Shown here: positions 154-20,023 of the stretch, piece by piece
Numbering within the stretch: the stretch's first letter is position 1
Layout of the letters: each line of letters opens with the position of its first letter
From: Paracoccaceae bacterium
GTDB taxonomy: Bacteria; Pseudomonadota; Alphaproteobacteria; Rhodobacterales; Rhodobacteraceae
Length of the DNA stretch: 64,000 nt
Assembly: GCA_022824005.1 (NCBI GenBank)
Contig: JAJEBG010000033.1
Span: 1-64,000 of the forward strand
Direction: 5' to 3'
Notes under the pieces: generated by a model
Told to the model about the DNA's origin: nothing
What the model saw: only the letters and a program-made list of their open reading frames with translations
Databases searched by the model: none
Position numbers and translations under genes: made by a program

Positions 154-183
154 CTTGACGCACAAGTCAAGACTTGCTAATTT
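154..183 (+). promoter_or_regulatory. Operator-like inverted repeats in the promoter region of the codA-type operon
   Basis: Two overlapping perfect inverted repeats lie about 90 bases upstream of the first gene: CTTGAC-N6-GTCAAG (154-171) and CAAGTC-AA-GACTTG (163-176). A -35-like TTGACG (155-160) and a weak -10-like TAATTT (178-183) sit 17 bases apart around the second repeat, so a bound repressor could block polymerase. The repeats are seen directly. The promoter assignment is inference, and no regulator gene is next to it. Confidence 0.4.
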
Positions 184-260
184 TATTTGATGGGTGCGTT
201 CGGGAGTCAAATGGGGGTCACGAAACCGCTCACATTTCTATTGAGAAAGGACAGTGAATA

Positions 261-1250
261 ATGCTCAAAACTATTTTGTTAGCTTCTGCCAGCGTGGTCG
301 TCGCCTCTAGCTCGATGGCGATGGACCACAAGAAAGTCTCTTTTGGCACCAATTGGGTCGCGCAAGCCGAGCATGGTGGTTTCTATCAATCAGTCGCCGA
401 CGGAACCTATGCCGAATGCGGTCTTGATGTCACCATCGTCCCGGGGGGCCCGCAAGTGAATAACCGTGCGCTCATGATGGCCGGCAAAATGGATTTTCAC
501 ATGGGTGGAGATCTCTTGCAAGCCTTCAACTCGGTCAAAGAAGGCATCCCCGTCGTGTCAGTGGCGGCCATGTTCCAGAAACATCCGCAAGTCATTCTGG
601 CCCATCCAGGAAAAGCCAGCAGTTTTGAAGACCTCAAAAACTTGACTCTTTTGATTGGTGACAATGGTTTTCAATCTTTTTATCGTTGGATGGTGGCCGA
701 GTATGGCTTTACCGAAGAACAGCGGCGGCCTTACACGTTTAATCCGGCTCCATTCCTCGCCGACGAGGATTTAGGGATGCAGGGTTATCTCTCGTCCGAA
801 CCCTACTTGGTTCAAAAGGAAGGTGGTTTTACGCCCGAAGTCTTCCTGATTGCTGACGCTGGATATTCAACCTACGCCACCACTATTGAGGCCATGGCCG
901 ATACCATTGCCAATGATCCCGAGAGTGTGGCCTGTTTTGTCGACGGCTCCATCAAAGGTTGGTACAACTATCTTTATGGTGATCCATCTGCGGCCAATGC
1001 GCTGATTCGCAAGGATAATCCTCAGATGACTGACGATAAGATTGCCTACGCTATTGACCGTATGTTGGCCGTTGGAATCGTTGATTCCGGCGACGCCCTC
1101 GATCACGGCATTGGCGCGATGACGGCGGAAAAAGTCGAAGACTTTTATAACAAGGTCAGGTCAGCCGGTGTCTTTGAAGATGATATTGATTGGCAAAAGG
1201 CCTTTACAACCCAATTCGTCAATAAACGTGTGGGAATGGACCTGAAATAA
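261..1250 (+). CDS. ABC transporter substrate-binding protein, NMT1/THI5-like
   Basis: Periplasmic binding protein of 329 residues for an ABC importer of the nitrate/taurine/thiamine-pyrimidine class. The N-terminus (MLKTILLASASVVVASSSMA) is a typical signal peptide. The mature part opens with FGTNWVAQAEHGGFYQSVA and continues with GLDVTIVPGGPQ and MMAGKMDFHMG, the pattern of the NMT1/THI5 fold, closest in feel to ThiY-type pyrimidine-precursor binders. The ATG is preceded by GAGAAAGGA. It is the first gene of an operon with its own ATPase and permease and with catabolic enzymes, so the ligand is probably the substrate of those enzymes. The ligand cannot be read from the sequence. Confidence 0.85.
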   Translation: MLKTILLASASVVVASSSMAMDHKKVSFGTNWVAQAEHGGFYQSVADGTYAECGLDVTIVPGGPQVNNRALMMAGKMDFHMGGDLLQAFNSVKEGIPVVSVAAMFQKHPQVILAHPGKASSFEDLKNLTLLIGDNGFQSFYRWMVAEYGFTEEQRRPYTFNPAPFLADEDLGMQGYLSSEPYLVQKEGGFTPEVFLIADAGYSTYATTIEAMADTIANDPESVACFVDGSIKGWYNYLYGDPSAANALIRKDNPQMTDDKIAYAIDRMLAVGIVDSGDALDHGIGAMTAEKVEDFYNKVRSAGVFEDDIDWQKAFTTQFVNKRVGMDLK

Positions 1251-1278
1251 GGCCCACGAAACAGATTTAACAAAGTTG

Positions 1279-1306
1279 GAGTGGACGACCCTCTTGTTGT
1301 CCACTC
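1279..1306 (+). terminator. Intercistronic stem-loop between binding protein and ATPase
   Basis: An 11-bp stem (GAGTGGACGAC paired with GTTGTCCACTC, one G-U) closes a 6-base loop 29 bases after the binding-protein stop. Only a weak T-rich tract follows, so it is better read as an mRNA-stabilising or partial-termination hairpin that makes the binding protein more abundant than the membrane components. It also occludes the GTG at 1281, which argues against that codon as the ATPase start. Confidence 0.55.
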
Positions 1307-1364
1307 TCGTTTGTCGGTTTTGCCGTTGTCATTAAGCCTATCTTCAATTGATGGAACTCCCACC

Positions 1365-2144
1365 TTGGTAGATACACATAATCAAGAAAAATTGCTGGCG
1401 GTCAATTCCGTTGGAAAGGTCTTTAGCAAGGGTGTCGTCGCATTGGAGGACATGCAACTGACGATCAATGAAGGTGACTTTCTCAGTCTTCTTGGCCCGT
1501 CCGGTTGTGGCAAATCAACGATTTTGCGAATGATTGCCGGCCTTATGGAGCCAACGACGGGACGAATTGAATGGGAAGGTGGCGTCGAACAGAGCAACGG
1601 TTCAATAGGTGTTGTTTTTCAGGAACCCACCCTGATGCCTTGGGCGACGGTCGAAAAGAATGTGTGGCTGCCGTTTCGTCTGCAAGGAAAAACCATGCGG
1701 TCAATGCGCAACGAAATCGACGAAGCCCTTCATTTGGTGGGACTTGACGGCTTTGCCGGCAGCTACCCTCGCGCCTTGTCGGGGGGAATGAAAATGCGGG
1801 TCGCCATCGCCCGTGCTTTGGCCACCAGTCCACGTGTCATTTTGATGGATGAACCCTTTGCCGCTCTTGATGAAATTACGCGTTTCAAACTCAACAATGA
1901 CCTGCTTGAACTCAAAGCCAAGATTGGTTGTACCATTCTTTTCGTGACTCATTCGGTTTTTGAGAGTGTGTTTTTGTCGGACCGGATCGCTGTTATGACG
2001 TCACGGCCGGGCCGCGTTCATTCAGAAATCGCGGTAAATGAACCTTACCCGAGAAATGAAACGTTCCGCACATCGGCGAGCTACTCCTCGTATTGCAGAA
2101 CAACTTCAGAGGCGCTTGAAAACTCGATTTCAGAGGCCGTCTAA
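1365..2144 (+). CDS. ABC transporter ATP-binding protein (SsuB/TauB type)
   Basis: Cytoplasmic ATPase energising the importer. It has Walker A GPSGCGKST, Q-loop region VVFQEPTLMPW, signature LSGGMKMRVAIARAL, Walker B VILMDEP and the H-loop histidine in FVTHSVFES. The ORF track begins at GTG 1281, but that codon sits inside a stable hairpin. TTG 1365 has GGA 9 bases upstream and gives MVDTHNQEKLLAVNSV, a normal lead-in for this family, so I place the start there with moderate certainty. The C-terminus is short after the D-loop (ALDEITR), as usual for SsuB. The permease gene follows at once. Confidence 0.85.
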   Translation: MVDTHNQEKLLAVNSVGKVFSKGVVALEDMQLTINEGDFLSLLGPSGCGKSTILRMIAGLMEPTTGRIEWEGGVEQSNGSIGVVFQEPTLMPWATVEKNVWLPFRLQGKTMRSMRNEIDEALHLVGLDGFAGSYPRALSGGMKMRVAIARALATSPRVILMDEPFAALDEITRFKLNNDLLELKAKIGCTILFVTHSVFESVFLSDRIAVMTSRPGRVHSEIAVNEPYPRNETFRTSASYSSYCRTTSEALENSISEAV

Positions 2145-2176
2145 AGACACAGAATGACGAACGATTGGGGCGCAGA

Positions 2177-3052
2177 ATGACTTTTGTTCAAACGAGAATG
2201 AGCGGCGGCATCGACGACGCTTCACTGGCTGCGGTGAATGAAGAGCGCAAACGATTGATGCGCCGTCGCTTCGAAAAAATTGGCAAATGGCTGCTCCCCG
2301 CATTGGTGTTGCTCTTGTCCTTGTGGTTCTGGGATCGCATCGTCGTGTGGAATGAAATCCCCCATTATATTTTACCCGGGCCCGGTAAGGTGTGGACGAC
2401 GCTCGTCACGGATTGGGGCTTGCTTTATGATGCCCTCAAAATCACCTTCAGAATCACTATGCTGGCTTTACTCGTCGCGGTGATCGGAGGGGCGGGTCTG
2501 GCGATTCTCTTTACCCAGTCACGGCTGTTTGAAATGTCACTTTTTCCGTACGCGGTGGTGCTGCAAGTGACGCCGATCATTTCAATCGCGCCGTTGATTT
2601 TTATTTATGTGGAAAACAAACTCGCAGGACTCTTGATCTGTGCGTGGATCGTGGCCTTTTTTCCTATTCTTTCAAATACCACTTTGGGATTAAACTCGAC
2701 TGATCACAATTTGCGTGATTTATTTCGCATTTATGGCGCGACCCGTTGGCAGCGACTGGTTCACCTGCAACTTCCGACCGCCCTTCCCTATTTCCTTGGC
2801 GGACTTCGAATCGCTGGGGGTCTGTCACTGATTGGCGCGGTCGTGGCCGAATATGTCGCTGGCACCGGCGGCATCGGCTCGGGTCTCGCATTTACCATCC
2901 TTGAAGCGGGATACCGGTTGAATATCCCGCGTATGTTTGCTGCTCTCCTCATCATCGCGGGCACCGGCGTCTTTATTTTCCTGACGCTCTCAATCATCAG
3001 CCATCTTCTCCTACGAAAATGGCATGAAAGTGCCTTGAAACAAGAGCAATGA
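2177..3052 (+). CDS. ABC transporter permease (SsuC/TauC type)
   Basis: Inner-membrane permease of the same importer. A hydrophobic segment (LLPALVLLLSLWFW) follows a basic N-terminus, then come further membrane spans and the EAA-like loop LRDLFRIYGATRWQRLVHLQ that contacts the ATPase. The ORF track starts at TTG 2165; ATG 2177 with GGGG just upstream is preferred and gives 291 residues. It overlaps the following codA-like gene by 4 bases (ATGA), which implies translational coupling. Confidence 0.87.
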   Translation: MTFVQTRMSGGIDDASLAAVNEERKRLMRRRFEKIGKWLLPALVLLLSLWFWDRIVVWNEIPHYILPGPGKVWTTLVTDWGLLYDALKITFRITMLALLVAVIGGAGLAILFTQSRLFEMSLFPYAVVLQVTPIISIAPLIFIYVENKLAGLLICAWIVAFFPILSNTTLGLNSTDHNLRDLFRIYGATRWQRLVHLQLPTALPYFLGGLRIAGGLSLIGAVVAEYVAGTGGIGSGLAFTILEAGYRLNIPRMFAALLIIAGTGVFIFLTLSIISHLLLRKWHESALKQEQ

Positions 3053-4326
3053 CAGCATTTCTGCCGATTTCCGATGCCATGGATTCATTTGGCATCCGTC
3101 ACGTCACGCTGGCTTCCAATTCGCGCCCATCGGCCATGGGAAAACACCAAATCTTCGTCAAGGATGGGCGAATCGCAGAACCTTCTGTTGACGTCCCGGT
3201 CATCGATGCGCAAGGGGCTATGCTTTTGCCAAGCTTCGTCGATATGCACACGCATCTCGACAAAGGGCATATATGGCCTCGAGCCGCCAACCCAGATGGC
3301 ACCTTTATGGGCGCGCTTCTCACGGTTCATAATGATCGACAAGCGCATTGGAGTGAGGCCGACGTCCGTCAAAGAATGGAGTTTGCCCTAAAATGCGCTT
3401 ACGCTCACGGGACACGCGCTATTCGTACCCATCTCGATTCGTTGCCCCCACAACATCAAATCACTTGGGCTGTTTTCGATGAAGTCCGCCAAGAGTGGCA
3501 AGATAAGATCGAGTTGCAGGCGGTGACAATCCTCGGCATTGACCTCATTGAGGATAATCCACAAGCTTTCCAAGATGTGGCCGACACGGCGGCCAATTTC
3601 GGTGGCGTTTTGGGCTGCGTGACCTATCCAATGGCTCGCTTGGACGATCATTTAGATGTTTTTTTTCAAACCGCGGCAGAGCGGGGCATGGATGCAGATT
3701 TTCACGTTGATGAAACCCACGATCCGAAGGCCAATACCCTGCTTTCTATTGCTCAGGCGGCTGAACGGGTGAATTTTTCGGGAACCATCGTCGTGGGCCA
3801 TTGCTGTTCTCTCGCTCGGCAAAGTGAGAAGGAATCAAAACACACACTTGATCGCGTCGCAAAAGCCAAAATCAATGTGGTTTCACTCCCCATGTGCAAC
3901 CTGTATTTGCAAGACCGTAAGGACGAAAAAACGCCGTTGTGGCGGGGAGTGACTCTTGTCCACGAAATGCGCCAACGGGGAATCCGCGTCGCCTTCGCGT
4001 CTGACAACACGCGCGACCCTTTTTACGCTTATGGTGATTTGGACATGGTTGAGGTGATGCGTGAAGCGACACGAATTTGTCACCTTGATCATTCAAAACT
4101 CGAATGGTTTAACGCATTCTCTGCATTGCCTGCTGAAATCTGTGGATTCTCCCCCTCCCACCTTCAAGTGGGGGATGCTGCCGATTTCATTGTCACTCGG
4201 GCGCGAAATTGGTCTGAATTTTTTTCCCGACCCCAATCTGACCGAATCGTTGTGAGGCACGGGCGCGTGATTGACCGTCAACTGCCCGACTATCGAGAAC
4301 TTGATAACTTATTTATGGTGAAGTGA
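3049..4326 (+). CDS. Cytosine deaminase-family amidohydrolase (CodA-like)
   Basis: Metal-dependent amidohydrolase of 425 residues in the cytosine/creatinine deaminase and N-isopropylammelide hydrolase group. Metal-site motifs are visible: HTHLDKGHIW (HxH), a further histidine in TRAIRTHLDS, ADFHVDETHD, VVGHCCSL and the catalytic aspartate in VAFASDNTRDPF. The family removes an exocyclic amino group as ammonia from N-heterocycles. Cytosine, creatinine and related rings are all possible substrates. Linkage to an NMT1-type importer, a flavin oxidase and a creatininase-family gene suggests a specific catabolic substrate rather than plain pyrimidine salvage. It overlaps both neighbours by 4 bases or fewer. 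Confidence 0.82.
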   Translation: MTAFLPISDAMDSFGIRHVTLASNSRPSAMGKHQIFVKDGRIAEPSVDVPVIDAQGAMLLPSFVDMHTHLDKGHIWPRAANPDGTFMGALLTVHNDRQAHWSEADVRQRMEFALKCAYAHGTRAIRTHLDSLPPQHQITWAVFDEVRQEWQDKIELQAVTILGIDLIEDNPQAFQDVADTAANFGGVLGCVTYPMARLDDHLDVFFQTAAERGMDADFHVDETHDPKANTLLSIAQAAERVNFSGTIVVGHCCSLARQSEKESKHTLDRVAKAKINVVSLPMCNLYLQDRKDEKTPLWRGVTLVHEMRQRGIRVAFASDNTRDPFYAYGDLDMVEVMREATRICHLDHSKLEWFNAFSALPAEICGFSPSHLQVGDAADFIVTRARNWSEFFSRPQSDRIVVRHGRVIDRQLPDYRELDNLFMVK

Positions 4327-5735
4327 TGACACAAAATTATGAACCTCTCATCAATGAACTCAGCCACTTGGATATTGACACCAACCCCGTGTCAGTTCGA
4401 TCCAAGAGTCGTGACTTCTTCTGGTATTCGCCCGTCTTGAAATCACATTTAGACCATATCACCGCGGCTTTTGCGATCTCACCTCGCTCAGAGGCCGAAG
4501 TCATCGAAATTCTGACCGCGTGCTATAAGCATGATGTGCCCGTGACCACGCGCGGCGCCGGTACCGGCAATTACGGGCAAGCGATGCCGCTCGCGGGTGG
4601 ATGTGTGATGCATATGCGGCATATGGCGGAGGTCAAGGATATTAAGCCGGGGCGCGTGAGCGTCCAGCCCGGCTGCCTTCTCAAGGATTTGGACGCCGCC
4701 TGTCGCGCTCATTCAGGCCAAGAAATCCGTATGTTCTCATCCACTTGGGCCACCGCCTCCATTGGAGGATTCATCGCCGGGGGGTCAGGCGGTGTCGGCT
4801 CTTGCACCTGGGGTCAATTGCGCGATTTTGGCAACATTATCCGATTGCGCGTCGTGACAATGGAAGAAAAACCCCGCGTTCTTGAATTTACCGGCGATGA
4901 ATTGCCACGCGTTTCACATGCCTATGGCACCAACGGCATCATCACCGAAATTGAGATGCCATTGGCTCCGGCTTATGACTGGGTGGGCTTATTCGTGGCC
5001 TTTGACGAATTTCTTGACTCGGCCAGATTTGCCGCTGATGTGGCCAATGAGGATGGCATATTGATCAAACTCGCGACGCCGTTTGAGGCCCCGATCGCCT
5101 ACGATTACTTTCCCCGCGTCAAGCCCCATATCAATCGCGAAGACAATCTTGTGGCGCTGATGGTCGCGCCGCACTCCATTGATGGCTTCATGACCTTTTG
5201 TAAGACCTATGAGGCAAAGGGGGGCGTCCGTATCATTTACCGTTCAGATAATAATGACTGGTCGCGTGATCCCGGACCTTTATTTGAGTATGGCTGGAAC
5301 CACACCACGCTCCGTGCTTTGCGGGTTGATCCGAGTGTGACCTACCTTCAGGTTCGTTACGGCTATCCTCATCATCTCGAGTTGGTGGCCAAGATTCGAG
5401 AGACCTTTAGCCCAGAGGTGCTGCAACATCTTGAAGTCATCCGCGAAAATGGCAAAGTTATGTTTGCTGGACTCCCCATTGTGAAATATTCGACCGAGGA
5501 GCGACTTGATGAAATCGTTCGTCTCCACGAAGAAATGGGGTGTATGATATTTAATCCCCATCGCTACACATTGGAGGAGGGCGGACGACAACATGTTGAT
5601 GAGCGGCAACTGAATTTCAAGCGCGAAGCCGATCCCAAAGGTTTGCTCAATCCCGGCAAAATGATTGCATGGGATGACCCTGACTGGGATTACCAGAGAA
5701 AATATGCTTATCCGGGTGTGATGGCTGCTGAATAA
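4326..5735 (+). CDS. FAD-binding oxidase/dehydrogenase (GlcD/VAO type)
   Basis: Flavoprotein of 469 residues from the vanillyl-alcohol-oxidase/FAD_binding_4 superfamily. The FAD PP-loop is seen as VTTRGAGTGNYGQAMPLAGG, followed by SIGGFIAGGSGGVGSCTWGQ, and the C-terminus FNPHRYTLEEGG...LLNPGKM matches the cap end of D-lactate/glycolate dehydrogenase relatives. It oxidises a small organic substrate; which one is unknown. The ATG overlaps the previous TGA (ATGA); the upstream GTG in the ORF track is not needed. Genes for two quinone-reductase-like flavoproteins follow and could handle the electrons or a quinonoid product. Confidence 0.8.
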   Translation: MTQNYEPLINELSHLDIDTNPVSVRSKSRDFFWYSPVLKSHLDHITAAFAISPRSEAEVIEILTACYKHDVPVTTRGAGTGNYGQAMPLAGGCVMHMRHMAEVKDIKPGRVSVQPGCLLKDLDAACRAHSGQEIRMFSSTWATASIGGFIAGGSGGVGSCTWGQLRDFGNIIRLRVVTMEEKPRVLEFTGDELPRVSHAYGTNGIITEIEMPLAPAYDWVGLFVAFDEFLDSARFAADVANEDGILIKLATPFEAPIAYDYFPRVKPHINREDNLVALMVAPHSIDGFMTFCKTYEAKGGVRIIYRSDNNDWSRDPGPLFEYGWNHTTLRALRVDPSVTYLQVRYGYPHHLELVAKIRETFSPEVLQHLEVIRENGKVMFAGLPIVKYSTEERLDEIVRLHEEMGCMIFNPHRYTLEEGGRQHVDERQLNFKREADPKGLLNPGKMIAWDDPDWDYQRKYAYPGVMAAE

Positions 5736-6313
5736 TGCGTGCGCTGGTGCTATTCGCTCATCCTGTTGAGGATAGTTTTTCGGCCGCGTTGCACGATCTT
5801 GTTGTTCGTCAATTGAATCTGCGGGGTTGGGATGTTGATGATTGCGACCTCTATAAGGAGAAATTCTCGCCCGTTGTGACCGCGCATGAGCGACGAATTT
5901 ACCATGACGAATCGGCTAATGTGGCCCCCGTTCAAGACTATGTCGATAGGCTGCGGGCGGCCTCGGCTTTGATTCTTATTTTTCCGGTGTGGATTTTTGG
6001 TTTTCCGGCCATCCTCAAGGGATTCTTTGATCGTGTCTGCGTCCCCGGTGTGGCGTTCAAACTAGAGAATGGCAAACTCAGCCCCAACTTGACGCAAATC
6101 AACAAAATCGCCGCCGTCACCACGTATGGAGGTCACCGCTTTCGTGCTTTAGCCGCCGGCGACCCGCCGCGTAAAATTGTGACCCGCACGATCGGCTTTT
6201 ATTGCCAACCCAAAAAAATCCGTTATCTGGCACTTTATGATATGAACCGCACAACGATCCAAAAACGTGAGGCCTTCCTTCGGCGCGTGAGTGATGAAAT
6301 GGATCGATTTTGA
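5735..6313 (+). CDS. NAD(P)H:quinone oxidoreductase-like flavoprotein 1 (Flavodoxin_2 fold)
   Basis: A 192-residue cytosolic flavoprotein of the NQO1/MdaB/KefF family, which moves two electrons from NAD(P)H to quinones or similar acceptors. Family marks are the start ALVLFAHPVEDSFSAALHD, the FMN/FAD-binding stretch LILIFPVWIFGFPAILKGFFDRV and TYGGHRFRALAAGDPP. Start and stop overlap the neighbours by one base each (TAATG, TGATG), so it is translated as part of the operon. The next gene is a paralogue. Confidence 0.8.
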   Translation: MRALVLFAHPVEDSFSAALHDLVVRQLNLRGWDVDDCDLYKEKFSPVVTAHERRIYHDESANVAPVQDYVDRLRAASALILIFPVWIFGFPAILKGFFDRVCVPGVAFKLENGKLSPNLTQINKIAAVTTYGGHRFRALAAGDPPRKIVTRTIGFYCQPKKIRYLALYDMNRTTIQKREAFLRRVSDEMDRF

Positions 6314-6912
6314 TGCGGGTTCTTGTCGTCTATTGTCACCCCAATCCAGAGAGCTTCAATGCCGCGGTTCTCGACGTGGTGGAACAGAAACTCGCCACCG
6401 CTGGCGTTGAAACACGTGTTGAAAATCTCTACGCGGATGGATTTGAGCCCGTTCTTAGTCAGCAGGGATTGGCCGACTATCACTCTATCCCAAAGAATCG
6501 GGAAGCCGTTCAGCGGCATATCGAAAATATCGAATGGTGCAATAGTTTGATCTTCATCTATCCAACCTGGTGGTACGGTGTTCCGGCTATGCTCAAGGGT
6601 TGGTTAGATCGCACACTGGTGCCGGGTTCAGCCTTTCATCTGCCCATGCATGGTGCCAAATCGATTGAGCCGGGACTGCAACATATCACGCGGTTGGCGG
6701 CCTTCACGACATGTGGTGCAAGTTGGCGATGGACGCAACTTATGGGCGCACCCGGAAAACGAACCTTATTGCGAGGTGTTCGGTCAATTTGTGCCTTGCG
6801 AGTTCGCACCATTTTTGCGGCGCATTATTCCATTGACTCGTCAACCGAGTTGAGCCGAAGTCGGCATTTGCTGAAGGTAGAACGGCAGATGGATAAGTTC
6901 TTGGCCGCATAA
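6313..6912 (+). CDS. NAD(P)H:quinone oxidoreductase-like flavoprotein 2
   Basis: Paralogue of the preceding gene, 199 residues, with VLVVYCHPNPESFNAAVLDVV at the N-terminus and LIFIYPTWWYGVPAMLKGWLDR in the flavin-binding region. ATG 6313 overlaps the preceding TGA by one base; the TTG used by the ORF track lies one codon upstream. Side-by-side paralogues may form a heterodimer or act on different intermediates; this is inference. Within the operon it is a likely partner of the FAD oxidase. Confidence 0.8.
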   Translation: MRVLVVYCHPNPESFNAAVLDVVEQKLATAGVETRVENLYADGFEPVLSQQGLADYHSIPKNREAVQRHIENIEWCNSLIFIYPTWWYGVPAMLKGWLDRTLVPGSAFHLPMHGAKSIEPGLQHITRLAAFTTCGASWRWTQLMGAPGKRTLLRGVRSICALRVRTIFAAHYSIDSSTELSRSRHLLKVERQMDKFLAA

Positions 6913-6933
6913 CCTGATGGGAATGAGGATGTC

Positions 6934-7728
6934 ATGAAAAAAACCGATTGGGACGCGTTCAAGGCCGGCGACTTTAAATCCATTGATGCCAATCGCACGA
7001 TCGCTGTTTTGCCGACCGCCGCCATTGAGCAACATGGCCCTCACCTTCCTGTCGGTACAGATACACGGATCGCTTGCGGGATGCTCAATAAAGTGAGACA
7101 TTCTCTTCCCTCTGATCTTGATATTCGAATCCTGCCTATCCAATCGGTTGGGAAGTCAAATGAGCATCTCTGGGCCCGCGGCACATTGACCCTGACGGCC
7201 GAGACGGCACTCCGTGTGTGGACTGAGATAGGAATCTCGGTCGCACGGACGGGGGTGCGTAAAATAGTGATTGTCAACTCGCATGGTGGCAACCTTGATC
7301 TTGTGTCGATTCTGGCCCGTGAATTGCGGGTACAAGCCGGAATGCTGGCGGTCAAATGCCAATGGATGAGTTTCGGCCTCCCTGATGGGCTGTTCTCGGA
7401 GCGCGAACAAAAAATCGGCATCCACGGCGGCGATGTCGAAACATCACTGATGCTCCATTTTCACCCAGAACTCGTCGATATGTCGCGAGCTCAAGATTTT
7501 CCATCAACCGCAGAAACTGATCAAATTCCCCCTGTCGGTGCGATCAATTATGGTTGGGTCGCGCGCGATCTAAGCCCCCACGGAGTCGTTGGAAATGCAG
7601 CCGCGGCCACCGCGGCCAAGGGAGAGGCCGTCGCTCATTATCAGGCACAAGAATTTATTAATCTTCTTCGCCGCGTTGAGACAACAAAACTGGATCGATT
7701 CTCGCCGGCCGATTCTCAACCTAATTGA
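6934..7728 (+). CDS. Creatininase-family amidohydrolase
   Basis: A 264-residue metal hydrolase of the creatininase/MftE/ArfB family. Expected metal ligands are seen: EQHGPHLPVGTD (Glu, His, Asp), the histidine in VNSHGGNLD and the Glu in GGDVETSLMLH. Members open cyclic amides such as creatinine or cleave formamides. It is the last gene of the operon, 21 bases after the previous stop, with GAATGAGGATGTC ahead of the ATG. Together with the CodA-like enzyme it points to degradation of a nitrogen ring compound; the true substrate is not identifiable from sequence. Confidence 0.8.
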   Translation: MKKTDWDAFKAGDFKSIDANRTIAVLPTAAIEQHGPHLPVGTDTRIACGMLNKVRHSLPSDLDIRILPIQSVGKSNEHLWARGTLTLTAETALRVWTEIGISVARTGVRKIVIVNSHGGNLDLVSILARELRVQAGMLAVKCQWMSFGLPDGLFSEREQKIGIHGGDVETSLMLHFHPELVDMSRAQDFPSTAETDQIPPVGAINYGWVARDLSPHGVVGNAAAATAAKGEAVAHYQAQEFINLLRRVETTKLDRFSPADSQPN

Positions 7729-7753: not shown

Positions 7754-8647
7754 TCATTGTTCGAGGCGGGCTAAATAGTCAGCGATCGCCTCATGATCCT
7801 CTAAAGGCACATGATGGGAGTAAGAGAGGGTCACAAGATACATTGAACTTCTCTCATCAATGGCTCCCGACCATTCGCTCAAAGCATTCAAAATTTTATC
7901 AGCGTCAAGGCCGGCGATGCGAGGGGCCGCTTTCTCTCCGTCCTTCAACGCTTTAGCCCCCATGAATGGCCGCGATTTATCTTCAACAAAAAAAACATCG
8001 CGCGGCGTGTGGCAAACCCCACAATGCCCAATACCGTTGACAATATATTGGCCTCGCTCCCATCCTTCTGATGAATCATCAATTCGATTATCGGGGACGT
8101 CTCGCTGTGCCAACACTTTCCAGAAAGCGAGCGCCGGTCGAATGTTAAAGGGAAAAAACAATTGATGCTCCGGTGCCCTCCCATGAGCCGCCGGCAGAGT
8201 TTCAAGATACGCTTTAAGGTGAAGCAAGTCAGTGAGTGAAACCTGAGCATAGGAGAGGTAAGGGAAGGACGGATAGTAATGCTGGCCCTCGGGACTGATC
8301 CCCTCGCGCATGGCATTGACAAAATCGGCATCGGACCAAGCGCCAATTCCCGTCTCCTTGTCAGGCGAGATATTGGGCGCGTAGAATGTTCCAAAATCTG
8401 TCTCGAGCCCCTTGCCCCCGATGAGAATCGTCTTGTTGTCGGAATGGCTATGGCAATGGGCGCAACCACCCATATGGAAGATCAATTCGCCGCGCGAGAC
8501 CTCTTTAACAAACCTTTCGGGAAGGGCCGCTTTGAGCTCGGCGTCAGATAATCCGGCCATTGAAGACAGGTAAAGGAATCCGCCGCCAGAGAGACAGACA
8601 ATGGCGGCAAGATATGCGAGCCCTTTGACCAAGGCAGGATCATCCAA
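7754..8647 (-). CDS. Diheme cytochrome c
   Basis: Membrane-anchored cytochrome with two c-type heme sites, CAHCH in the N-terminal half and CGVCHTPRD in the C-terminal half. It resembles the cytochrome subunits of membrane alcohol/gluconate dehydrogenases. One hydrophobic N-terminal segment (GLAYLAAIVCLSGGGFLYL) would export and anchor it. The only in-frame start near the N-terminus is TTG, directly after the TGA of the upstream cytochrome c' gene; no clear ribosome site is seen, so coupling by re-initiation is likely. It would carry electrons in the periplasm; the donor is unknown. Confidence 0.8.
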   Translation of the reverse strand: MDDPALVKGLAYLAAIVCLSGGGFLYLSSMAGLSDAELKAALPERFVKEVSRGELIFHMGGCAHCHSHSDNKTILIGGKGLETDFGTFYAPNISPDKETGIGAWSDADFVNAMREGISPEGQHYYPSFPYLSYAQVSLTDLLHLKAYLETLPAAHGRAPEHQLFFPFNIRPALAFWKVLAQRDVPDNRIDDSSEGWERGQYIVNGIGHCGVCHTPRDVFFVEDKSRPFMGAKALKDGEKAAPRIAGLDADKILNALSEWSGAIDERSSMYLVTLSYSHHVPLEDHEAIADYLARLEQ

Positions 8648-9082
8648 TCAGTTGCGATATTGGCTGTGGCAGGATTTGCACGTGGCCGCAAGGCTAGAAA
8701 ACGCCCGTTGAAATTGTTCCGACGATTGTGCTTGCTGAACCAACTCGCCAGCCATTCTCAATTCAGCGGCCTTTTCGGCAAACCCTTTTGGATCGTCGAA
8801 AATTAGCGGTGCCGCTTGTGTCCGCCCCCCACTCTTTGTCCCGGGCGGGAAAAGGAGGGGATAGCTACTCGCCATAACAGCTAATGATTGACCTGAAAGT
8901 TGCACGATATCGGCGTTGAAATCAACGCGGCCTTGCGCCATGGGGCCGAGCCGACGCATCTCGCCACCGACAAATTTCATTATCTGTTTTCGTGCTTCAA
9001 TATAGGCGAGTGAATCTTGTGCTAGGGCACCGCTTGCCACGCCATTTGTGATCAACAATACTAGAGTCAATAGAAGTCTCAT
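8648..9082 (-). CDS. Cytochrome c' (class II, monoheme)
   Basis: Periplasmic class II cytochrome of 144 residues with a signal peptide (MRLLLTLVLLITNGVASGALA) and the heme motif CKSCH at the extreme C-terminus, as usual for cytochrome c'/c556. ATG 9082 is chosen because GGGAGGAG lies 5 bases upstream; the GTGs before it are within that spacing. It is first in a two-gene unit with the diheme cytochrome. Members bind NO or shuttle electrons; the role here is open. Confidence 0.82.
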   Translation of the reverse strand: MRLLLTLVLLITNGVASGALAQDSLAYIEARKQIMKFVGGEMRRLGPMAQGRVDFNADIVQLSGQSLAVMASSYPLLFPPGTKSGGRTQAAPLIFDDPKGFAEKAAELRMAGELVQQAQSSEQFQRAFSSLAATCKSCHSQYRN

Positions 9083-9122
9083 CACCACTCCTCCCGTTAA
9101 AAACTATCCCTATCCAAGTCCC

Positions 9123-16499: not shown

Positions 16500-17132
16500 T
16501 CATTCAACTTTGGAAGAGGCGAGACCGCCTTTGAGTTGAATAAATTCTGCCACCTCTCGAACGCCCTCTCCAGCACGCAGATTGGTGAACAGAAACGGCC
16601 TCTCGCCACGCATCATTACCGAATCCCGTTCCATAACGGCAAGACTAGCCCCCACATGGGGGGCGAGATCAATCTTGTTGATCACCAAAAGATCCGACCG
16701 GGTAATGCCCGGGCCCCCTTTACGAGGAATTTTGTCGCCAGCAGAGACATCAATCACATAAATCGTTAAATCGGCCAATTCGGGGCTGAATGTGGCGGCT
16801 AAATTATCCCCCCCTGACTCGATAATGATGAGGTCAAGAGCAGGAAAGAGGTTTTGCATTTGGCGAATCGCCGCAAGATTGGCCGAGGCATCTTCTCGGA
16901 TCGCTGTGTGTGGGCAACCGCCGGTCTCAACCCCAGCGATTCGCTGACTCTCCAAAGCGTGAGAGCGGGTTAAGAATTGGGCGTCTTCCTTGGTATAAAT
17001 GTCATTGGTAATGACCGCGATCTCAAACTCTTCGCGGAAAGTCTTGCATAGTCTGTCCAGTAAAGCCGTCTTGCCGCTCCCCACAGGGCCGCCGACCCCG
17101 ACTCGCAAAGGGCCGTTATAGTCTTCATTCAT
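16500..17132 (-). CDS. ureG: Urease accessory GTPase
   Basis: SIMIBI-class GTPase of 210 residues that drives nickel insertion into urease. P-loop [14 protein letters not shown], the nickel/zinc-binding CPH motif in [18 protein letters not shown] and the guanine motif [12 protein letters not shown] are present. There is no His-rich N-terminal tail. The ATG overlaps the ureF stop by 4 bases. It is last of the ure genes; 125 bases separate it from the PuuE-UraD gene. Confidence 0.95.
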
Positions 17133-17866
17133 GAGCGAAATAGCCTCGTATATTGAGTTTCGTGATGCATCGAGTCGATATCGATAAGAGGTGCAGAGGA
17201 GCCGATCTCATCAAGCGTGAGGGTTTGAGCTTGTCGACAGGCCCGAGAAGTGATCTCGGAAAATGACGCCAAGACTTGCAAGCCTTGTGTTTGACCCAAC
17301 GGAATGAGACGAACCCCCGCCGAGACCAGCGATGTGGCGAGGGAATGGTACCAACTGGTCAATGATGCGTTGAGAGGAATCCTTTGCAGGGCGCAGGCAA
17401 TGGCGACAGCGACAGGATAGGTCTGAATCTGGTCAAAGAAATCCACTTGCTCTGACCCCATCTGTTGCACCGCTTTTATAAAAGCCTCGCCCTGTGTGCG
17501 GCTCTCAAGAGCCAATTCCTCTGTCGGCAATAGGGCATTGGATAGATCATCAATATCCCCGAGTCGAACGCGCGCTCCCTCAATCGTCGCTTTGTAAGCT
17601 TCACAAAAGATCACTCCTTCAGAACGTCCACTGCCGTGCATCAGAACCGTCTCCAACCAAGATTTGAGGTGAGAAGAGTCAGTGACCGCTCCCTTCTCGA
17701 CGGCCATTTCCAACCCGTGCGAATAAGCAAATGACCCCACGGGAAAAGATGGAGAAAACCACATCAATAGCATCTGCAACTGATCTTGGCTCAACTCGTC
17801 TCTCCCACCTTGAACCTCAACCGAGCCATCACGAATTGACGATAGCATCAGGTCATCTTTCTTCAT
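17129..17866 (-). CDS. ureF: Urease accessory protein
   Basis: All-helical accessory factor that joins UreD and UreG on apo-urease. Family marks are [25 protein letters not shown] and [20 protein letters not shown]. The ORF track start (ATG 17866) overlaps ureE by 14 bases; ATG 17848, with AAGAAAGA upstream and just after the ureE stop, is an alternative. The protein is about 245 or 239 residues, normal for UreF. Confidence 0.93.
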
Positions 17867-18314
17867 GGTGGTTCGTCAATTGATGGTGATACGCCCCCCT
17901 CTCGGGGTTGAAGGCTGCCTGTACGGGCTCGGGCGCACATCCCTGTCCTTTCAGCATGGTCTCAATCACCGAGTCATGACGGACACGAATCCGGTCAGCG
18001 GTAATATCAGCTGGACAATGGTGGTTACCAAGATGCCATGCCACAGACATAAAATGTTGAGGGTCAGACAATCGAATTTCGAGCAGCGGTTCAGGTGCTG
18101 ACAGCACCTGCAGCCAGTGTCCATCGTTGAGTTTAAGACCATCGCCATCCGCCAAGATGACCGCCTGCGGTAAGTCAAGGAGAACCGGGCCGATGCCGGT
18201 GTCATCGAGTCTCACCCGTCGCCGGTAGCGGGACTCATAGTCAAGCTTCACCGCCCCAATGGCATCTTCCGCCGGCCAATCACCGCAACGTGCCATGGCA
18301 ATTGCACGGCGCAT
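17853..18314 (-). CDS. ureE: Urease accessory nickel chaperone
   Basis: Nickel-delivery protein of 153 residues. The central MSVAWHLGNHHCPADITADRI is the conserved UreE nickel-site region, and the C-terminus ([13 protein letters not shown]) carries a modest His cluster rather than the long polyhistidine tail of some homologues. ATG 18314 overlaps the ureC TGA by one base. Confidence 0.93.
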   Translation of the reverse strand: MRRAIAMARCGDWPAEDAIGAVKLDYESRYRRRVRLDDTGIGPVLLDLPQAVILADGDGLKLNDGHWLQVLSAPEPLLEIRLSDPQHFMSVAWHLGNHHCPADITADRIRVRHDSVIETMLKGQGCAPEPVQAAFNPERGAYHHQLTNHHEER

Positions 18315-20023
18315 CAATAAAGAAAATACCGTTGCGCCATGGGTAGTTTTTCAGCGGGCTTGCAGGCCAGCAATTCCCCATCGGCGCGCACCTCATAGGT
18401 CTCCGGGTCAACCTCAATATTTGGCGTCGCGGTATTGAGTATCATCGACGACTTGCCGATGCCGGATCGGGTGTTCTTGACGGGCAACACCTGCCGTGAC
18501 AAGCCAAGTCTATCTCCGATGACTCGCTCGTGCGCCGCTTGACTAACGAAGGTGGCCGCTAAAGGCCCTAGCGCTTTGCCAAATGCGGCAAACATGGGTC
18601 GATAATGAACCGGCTGTGGTGTCGGTATCGACGCGTTGGGATCGCCCATTGGGGCCGCCACAATCATTCCGGACTTCAACACGAGGTTCGGTTTGGCACC
18701 AAAGAAGGCCGGATCCCAAACCACTAGGTCGGCTAATTTTCCGACTTCAACGGACCCAACATAGGGGCTGACCCCTTGCGCGATGGCAGGATTGATACCG
18801 TATTTGGCGATATAACGGCGCACACGGAAATTGTCATTATTGCCCGTCTCCTCACTCAAGGCCCCGCGCTGGCGTTTCATCTTGTCGGCGGTTTGCCAAG
18901 TGCGAATAATCACTTCCCCTACCCGACCCATGGCCTGACTGTCTGAAGCCATAATCGACATCGCCCCCATATCGTGAAGAATATCCTCGGCGGCGATCGT
19001 TTCAGGACGAATGCGACTGTCTGCAAAGGCCAAGTCTTCGGGAATTCGCGAATCGAGATGATGACAGACCATCAGCATATCGAGATGTTCTGCCAAGGTG
19101 TTGACTGTAAAGGGGCGGGTCGGATTGGTTGATGATGGGAGAATATGGCTCTCGCCGCACAGGCGGATAATATCAGGAGAATGACCACCTCCCGCGCCTT
19201 CGGTATGAAAAGCGTGGATGACACGATGACCAATCGCTTTCATGCTGACTTCAACAAAACCCGATTCATTCAGTGTATCGGTGTGGATCATCACTTGGAC
19301 ATCCATCTCATCGGCGATATTGAGACAAGTATCAATGGCCGAGGGTGTCGTGCCCCAATCTTCATGGAGTTTGAGTCCGCAGGCCCCCGCCTCAATCTGT
19401 TCCATGAGGGGTTCGGTTCGTGAGGCGTTGCCCTTTCCGAAAAAACCGAGATTGACCGGGAAAGCTTCGGCGGCTTGCAACATTCGGCTCATGTGCCAAC
19501 TGCCGGGTGTGCATGTGGTGGCGTTGGTACCGGTGGCGGGCCCCGTTCCTCCCCCCATCATGGTCGTGATACCGCTGTAGAGAGAATCTTCGATCTGTTG
19601 AGGACAAATAAAATGGATATGCACATCAAGGCCACCCGTCGTGACAATTTTGCCCTCTGCGGCGATGGCTTCGGTGCCGGGCCCTATGACGATGTCCACC
19701 CCCGGTTGGATATCGGGATTTCCGGCCTTGCCGATCGCCGCAATCCGTCCATCTCTAATACCTATATCAGCCTTGATGATTCCCCAATGATCGACAATCA
19801 CCGCATTGGTAATGACGGTATCAACCGCGCCTTCGGCTCGCGTCACCTGTGACTGGCCCATGCCATCACGGATGACTTTACCACCGCCAAATTTAACCTC
19901 GTCACCATAGACTGTGCGATCAGATTCGATCTCAATAAAGAGTTCGGTATCGGCCAGCCGAATTCGATCCCCCGTCGTCGGACCGAAAATGCTGACATAT
20001 TCACTTCTGCTGATTTGGCGCAT
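18314..20023 (-). CDS. ureC: Urease subunit alpha (catalytic)
   Basis: Catalytic subunit of nickel urease, 569 residues, full length. Active-site elements are complete: HIHFICPQQ (His pair), the carbamylated lysine in [12 protein letters not shown], the flap-region histidines in VCHHLD, and [13 protein letters not shown]. It hydrolyses urea to ammonia and carbamate. It is flanked by ureB and ureE. Urea could come from the ureide genes just downstream or from outside; no urea transporter is encoded here. Confidence 0.97.

Follow-up and report, generated by a model that had tools for sequence, protein, structure and literature searches.

A conserved eight-gene operon of a Paracoccaceae bacterium, probably for importing folate-derived pterins and degrading them oxidatively

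The eight genes at positions 261 to 7728 of the window, the 64,000-nucleotide stretch of Paracoccaceae bacterium DNA analysed here, probably form one operon that takes up pterins, the bicyclic part of folate, and degrades them by oxidation; a pterin derived from folate, and not creatinine, is the most likely substrate. Operons of this kind are known in part, through a crystallized flavin oxygenase (PDB 6V42) and through pterin deaminases, and that of the window is a further member of an incompletely described kind. The gene set, which many marine and soil bacteria possess, is carried by many genomes under misleading names such as cytosine deaminase and creatininase, and a link to pterins would correct these annotations while providing a cultivable test of folate ring breakdown after deamination, the step left open by the study of Variovorax (PMC9513972). 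If the pterin reading is true, roseobacters may draw nitrogen from recycled products of vitamin breakdown.

Operon layout and proposed route

The window forms the left end of a contig (C24) in a draft genome of 2.26 Mb, and the sequence upstream of its first base therefore lies on another contig. All eight genes are intact open reading frames running in the same direction on the + strand, joined by overlaps of 1–4 bp or gaps of 20–30 bp. The first three encode an ABC importer composed of an NMT1/Thi5-like substrate-binding protein of 329 residues with a signal-peptide-like N-terminus (261..1250; Pfam NMT1, 69.6 bits), an ATPase (1281..2144; Pfam ABC_tran, 121 bits) and a permease (2165..3052; Pfam BPD_transp_1, 75.6 bits), the last listed with a TTG start and an in-frame ATG 12 bases further in. 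They are followed by a CodA-like amidohydrolase, a proposed pterin deaminase (3049..4326; Pfam Amidohydro_3/1; NCBIfam PRK07583, a family named cytosine deaminase, 600.9 bits against a cut-off of 403), an FAD flavoprotein, a proposed flavin oxygenase of pterin/folate catabolism (4323..5735; Pfam FAD_binding_4), two NQO-like NAD(P)H oxidoreductases of flavodoxin fold, FLV1 (5735..6313; Pfam Flavodoxin_2, 96.8 bits) and FLV2 (6310..6912; Pfam Flavodoxin_2, 108 bits), and a creatininase-family metal amidohydrolase, a proposed ring-amide/formamide hydrolase (6934..7728; Pfam Creatininase, 230.8 bits). Reading frame coordinates and Pfam matches agree with the original prediction that eight genes of these families are coupled by overlaps or short gaps. 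The operon start that it gave, position 154, is not upheld: the first gene begins at 261, an in-frame stop lies just before its ATG, and no promoter-like match was seen at 154. Scans for an operon promoter and terminator gave results at or below the level of shuffled sequence, and a riboswitch search at the operon found none. The creatininase-family gene is taken to end the operon because a convergent pair, a c-type cytochrome gene adjoining a cytochrome c′ gene (7754–9088, − strand), comes next on the opposite strand.

The most economical order of events for the proposed route is import, deamination, oxygenation, amide hydrolysis and imine hydrolysis. The NMT1-type importer would take up a pterin or pterin-like fragment and the CodA-like amidohydrolase would strip its 2-amino group to yield a lumazine and ammonia, two steps proposed on family and residue evidence. 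The FAD protein may then oxygenate the ring and so enable its opening, with reducing power derived from NAD(P)H arriving via one or both of the NQO-like flavoproteins; this step is suggested by the title of the 6V42 entry and by orthology. The creatininase-family enzyme would hydrolyse the exposed amide or formamide bond, and RidA, encoded just upstream in most relatives, would clear the resulting imine or enamine as ammonia. We infer the amide hydrolysis and RidA steps, as well as the chemistry and order of events from oxygenation onwards and the substrate in the window organism. That these genes make up a complete, unpublished pathway which opens and mineralizes the pterin ring in marine roseobacters, with lumazine oxygenated in a new flavin-dependent reaction before a ring hydrolase of the creatininase family acts, is a possibility we put forward only tentatively; if true, pterins released from dissolved folate would supply nitrogen in sea water. 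Several proteins of molybdenum hydroxylase type and a urease, also encoded in this genome, could act before or after the proposed pathway. The urease genes (17129–20023, − strand) include those for the alpha subunit (18314–20023) and UreF (17129–17866), and the Rfam model for the 5′ ureB antisense RNA has a match within the same region at 19586–19873.

The FAD enzyme and conservation of the gene set

When the FAD enzyme was compared by sequence with proteins of known structure, 6V42 scored 592.8 bits (phmmer) and the next structure 50 bits. Identity to 6V42 is 57–58% over the full length, and an AlphaFold model of the enzyme (pLDDT 80.0) has 6V42 as its best Foldseek match with a TM score of 0.88. 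In a tree of 36 sequences the two proteins fall within one clade of 24 members with support of 100/100, while relatives from Pantoea, Salipiger, Comamonadaceae and Roseateles lie outside it. By these comparisons the FAD enzyme is an ortholog of 6V42, an entry titled ‘flavin oxygenase with cofactor bound involved in folate catabolism’, and it is proposed to be a flavin oxygenase of pterin/folate catabolism; the folate assignment is that of the depositors' title, and literature searches found no paper describing 6V42. The suggestion that the FAD protein and its NQO-like partners imply an oxidative step is supported. The accompanying claim that no characterized pathway has exactly this set of genes is only partly right: a relative of the FAD enzyme has been crystallized and filed under folate catabolism, and published work describes pterin deaminases from a related family (PMC9513972). 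Among the papers available, literature searches turned up none on the operon, the gene set or the full pathway.

The operon context of 6V42 was read from the genus nearest its source, at 90% identity. In two loci of that genus (L170 and L171), in which the FAD gene is 89–90% identical to 6V42, the genes for the binding protein, ATPase, permease, amidohydrolase, FAD enzyme, FLV1 and FLV2 follow one another in the order of the window. The likeness to the 6V42/6V43 system therefore comprises both a common clade and a common order of seven genes. The two arrangements differ in that the creatininase-family gene of the 6V42-type operon stands with the RidA gene in divergent orientation, whereas in the window it ends the operon and RidA is found on another contig. 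A separate cassette (L180, 7834–11902) contains three tandem relatives of the FAD oxygenase.

Relatives of the FAD gene (E ≤ 1e-30) are present in 47 of 198 genomes of the order. The genes for the amidohydrolase, the FAD enzyme, FLV1 and FLV2 lie side by side in every one of the 28 genomes with FAD identity of at least 66%, a set from which the genome of the window is left out. Named genomes were scanned as well and yielded 80 loci to which an organism name could be attached, including 63 Rhodobacteraceae-type loci with enough flanking sequence; the run from binding protein to FAD enzyme is collinear in 62 of these, the creatininase-family gene is present in 53, and all eight genes are collinear by best match in 50. 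Both flavodoxin matches occur in all 63, as best matches of two similar queries, and when separate flavodoxin genes were counted 69 of 73 loci had two and four had one. A Rhizobium plasmid operon likewise has a single flavodoxin gene, and together with the four single-gene loci it indicates that the pair is not strictly needed. Rhizobiaceae-type genomes have the same gene set with a RidA gene, and dozens of genera share these genes and their order, a recurrence which places their co-occurrence far beyond chance. Culturable carriers include Silicimonas algicola (L055) and Jannaschia aquimarina (L036).

Downstream of the operon a 2OG-Fe oxygenase gene is found in 40 of 67 loci, and clustering of the neighbouring genes of some 100 loci revealed no widely recurrent partner besides this gene and RidA. 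Given the conserved set and the lack of any further widely recurring neighbour, the unit is real and self-contained. The neighbourhood check put forward with the original prediction, whether the set is conserved as a unit, thus finds it conserved across Alphaproteobacteria, and this conservation across genomes supports the view of a single functional unit combining import, ring hydrolysis and an oxidative step. The flanking genes include no recurring enzyme specific to folate, carboxypeptidase G for instance, and this counts against the folate reading, as do the negative riboswitch search at the operon and the NCBIfam name of the amidohydrolase. Accessory oxygenases observed at L117, L193 and L113 include a Rieske type in Nitratireductor, a TauD type in Ruegeria TM1040 and DIOX_N/2OG-FeII_Oxy proteins in many Rhodobacteraceae.

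The type of accessory oxygenase varies among cassettes (2OG-Fe, Rieske or TauD), so the substrates may differ between branches. This would fit an operon directed at another fused or cyclic N-heterocycle, such as a xanthopterin-like pigment, a lumichrome or flavin fragment or a deazapurine, with the folate label of 6V42 reflecting a side activity. We consider this unlikely for the window, which belongs to the strongly supported branch of 6V42 and has the same operon order.

Hydrolases, importer and the choice of substrate

The amidohydrolase shares its fold family and most of its metal-site residues with Escherichia coli CodA. In an alignment with 1k6w the metal and acid/base residues of CodA (HxH, HxxE, His and Asp) are kept, the second motif reading HxDE, and they are conserved in 14 members. 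The substrate-binding Gln156 of CodA, however, is absent: it is replaced by Gly163 in the window enzyme and glutamine occurs at this position in none of the 14 cassette members, while Asp314 of CodA corresponds to asparagine in all 14. On these residues the NCBIfam name cytosine deaminase is probably a misnomer for the window enzyme, and with Gln156 lost a cytosine-type deamination, as first envisaged, finds no support.

The pterin deaminases Arad3529 of Agrobacterium radiobacter and PDA of Variovorax sp. F1 are also cytosine-deaminase-like amidohydrolases. Arad3529 was reportedly proposed by Fan in 2013 as the start of an undescribed pterin degradation pathway. A Comamonadaceae plasmid has a cassette of the same kind (flavodoxin, amidohydrolase, creatininase-family enzyme, importer, FAD enzyme and RidA), and its amidohydrolase is 36–37% identical to the alphaproteobacterial ones, with 36.8–37.6% measured against those of Rhizobium type. 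By published description the Variovorax enzyme has a similar identity of 36–37% to Arad3529, and an endoribonuclease gene lies downstream of the Variovorax deaminase genes; that work covered hydrolysis and deamination of folate, with no ring opening (PMC9513972). This match in identity level and RidA cassette, a link made through the published description, is circumstantial but specific, and together with the residue evidence it points to the CodA-like amidohydrolase as a candidate pterin deaminase. On the atrazine plasmid pADP-1 an amidohydrolase of the window's deaminase group (L192, 6941–8272) is located behind a BMP-type ABC importer.

The last enzyme of the operon has the fold family and most metal-site residues of Pseudomonas creatininase but lacks the residues that define its substrate. 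The alignment places HGGN where creatininase has HYEN and reveals no counterparts of Glu122 and Trp174, and the score for the creatininase equivalog TIGR04448 is 86 bits, below the cut-off of 235; creatinine as a substrate, one of those originally suggested, is accordingly unsupported. Nor does the enzyme reach the NCBIfam cut-offs for ArfB (27.7 against 180 bits), MftE (117.7 against 172 bits) or IolN (47.6 against 245 bits). Its family also includes BrbF (SMc02977) of Sinorhizobium, a formamidase that acts on a GTP-derived pyrimidine in riboflavin biosynthesis, for which the distant homologue Oant_3869 of Ochrobactrum did not complement (PMC9478397). Although the role of BrbF is biosynthetic and not catabolic, the family can evidently hydrolyse formamides on GTP-derived pyrimidines, and because this Sinorhizobium member deformylates such a compound it is plausible, by analogy, that the last enzyme is a ring-amide or formamide hydrolase acting on a pterin breakdown product.

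The binding protein satisfies the NMT1 family model (PF09084). Its structure could be modelled with moderate quality (pLDDT 77.5), and the nearest folds in the PDB are ThiY (3ix1, aminopyrimidine), the thiamin-bound 4nmy and Thi5, ahead of the sulfonate and taurine binders SsuA and TauA. The modelled fold speaks against a sulfonate ligand, the alternative raised with the original prediction, and would fit a pyrimidine-containing ring, without constituting proof of the ligand. The same folds are what would be expected if the operon degraded a thiamin-type aminopyrimidine (HMP or formyl-aminopyrimidine) by ThiY-like import, CodA-like deamination, creatininase-family deformylation and FAD oxidation, and creatininase-family formamidases active on pyrimidines do exist (PMC9478397). 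Such a route is nevertheless decidedly unlikely: the closest structure to the FAD enzyme is filed under folate catabolism, a TPP riboswitch is absent from the window and seven related loci, and the annotated genes flanking the related plasmid loci examined include none for thiamin. Catabolism of creatinine, or of cytosine or a simple pyrimidine, by the CodA-like and creatininase-like enzymes is very improbable and was rejected on residues (the missing counterparts of Glu122, Trp174 and CodA Gln156) and curated scores (86 against 235 bits for TIGR04448), the points in its favour being the family names, Pfam Creatininase and NCBIfam ‘cytosine deaminase’; it is further disfavoured in that we know of no need for an FAD oxygenase or NQO-like proteins in the known creatinine and cytosine routes.

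RidA and a probable contig junction

The RidA gene, whose product is assigned the final step of the proposed pterin route, is divergent and upstream of the operon in 51 of 65 loci, mostly at a distance of 200–340 bases from the gene for the binding protein. In the genome of the window it lies on a second contig (C54, 1426–1809) and adjoins a gene for polyphosphate kinase 2 (PPK2), the pair occupying 1426–2848 (L187). The same RidA–PPK2 pair stands upstream of the operon in a related locus (L032), with some 1.9 kb between RidA and the gene for the binding protein, and for this reason C54 and C24 probably adjoin at their left ends, a junction deduced from the gene order of L032 and not from the assembly. 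Near the presumed junction, at 490–985 of C54 (L187), fragments resembling a short-chain dehydrogenase are spread over more than one reading frame and may be what is left of a gene that has decayed.
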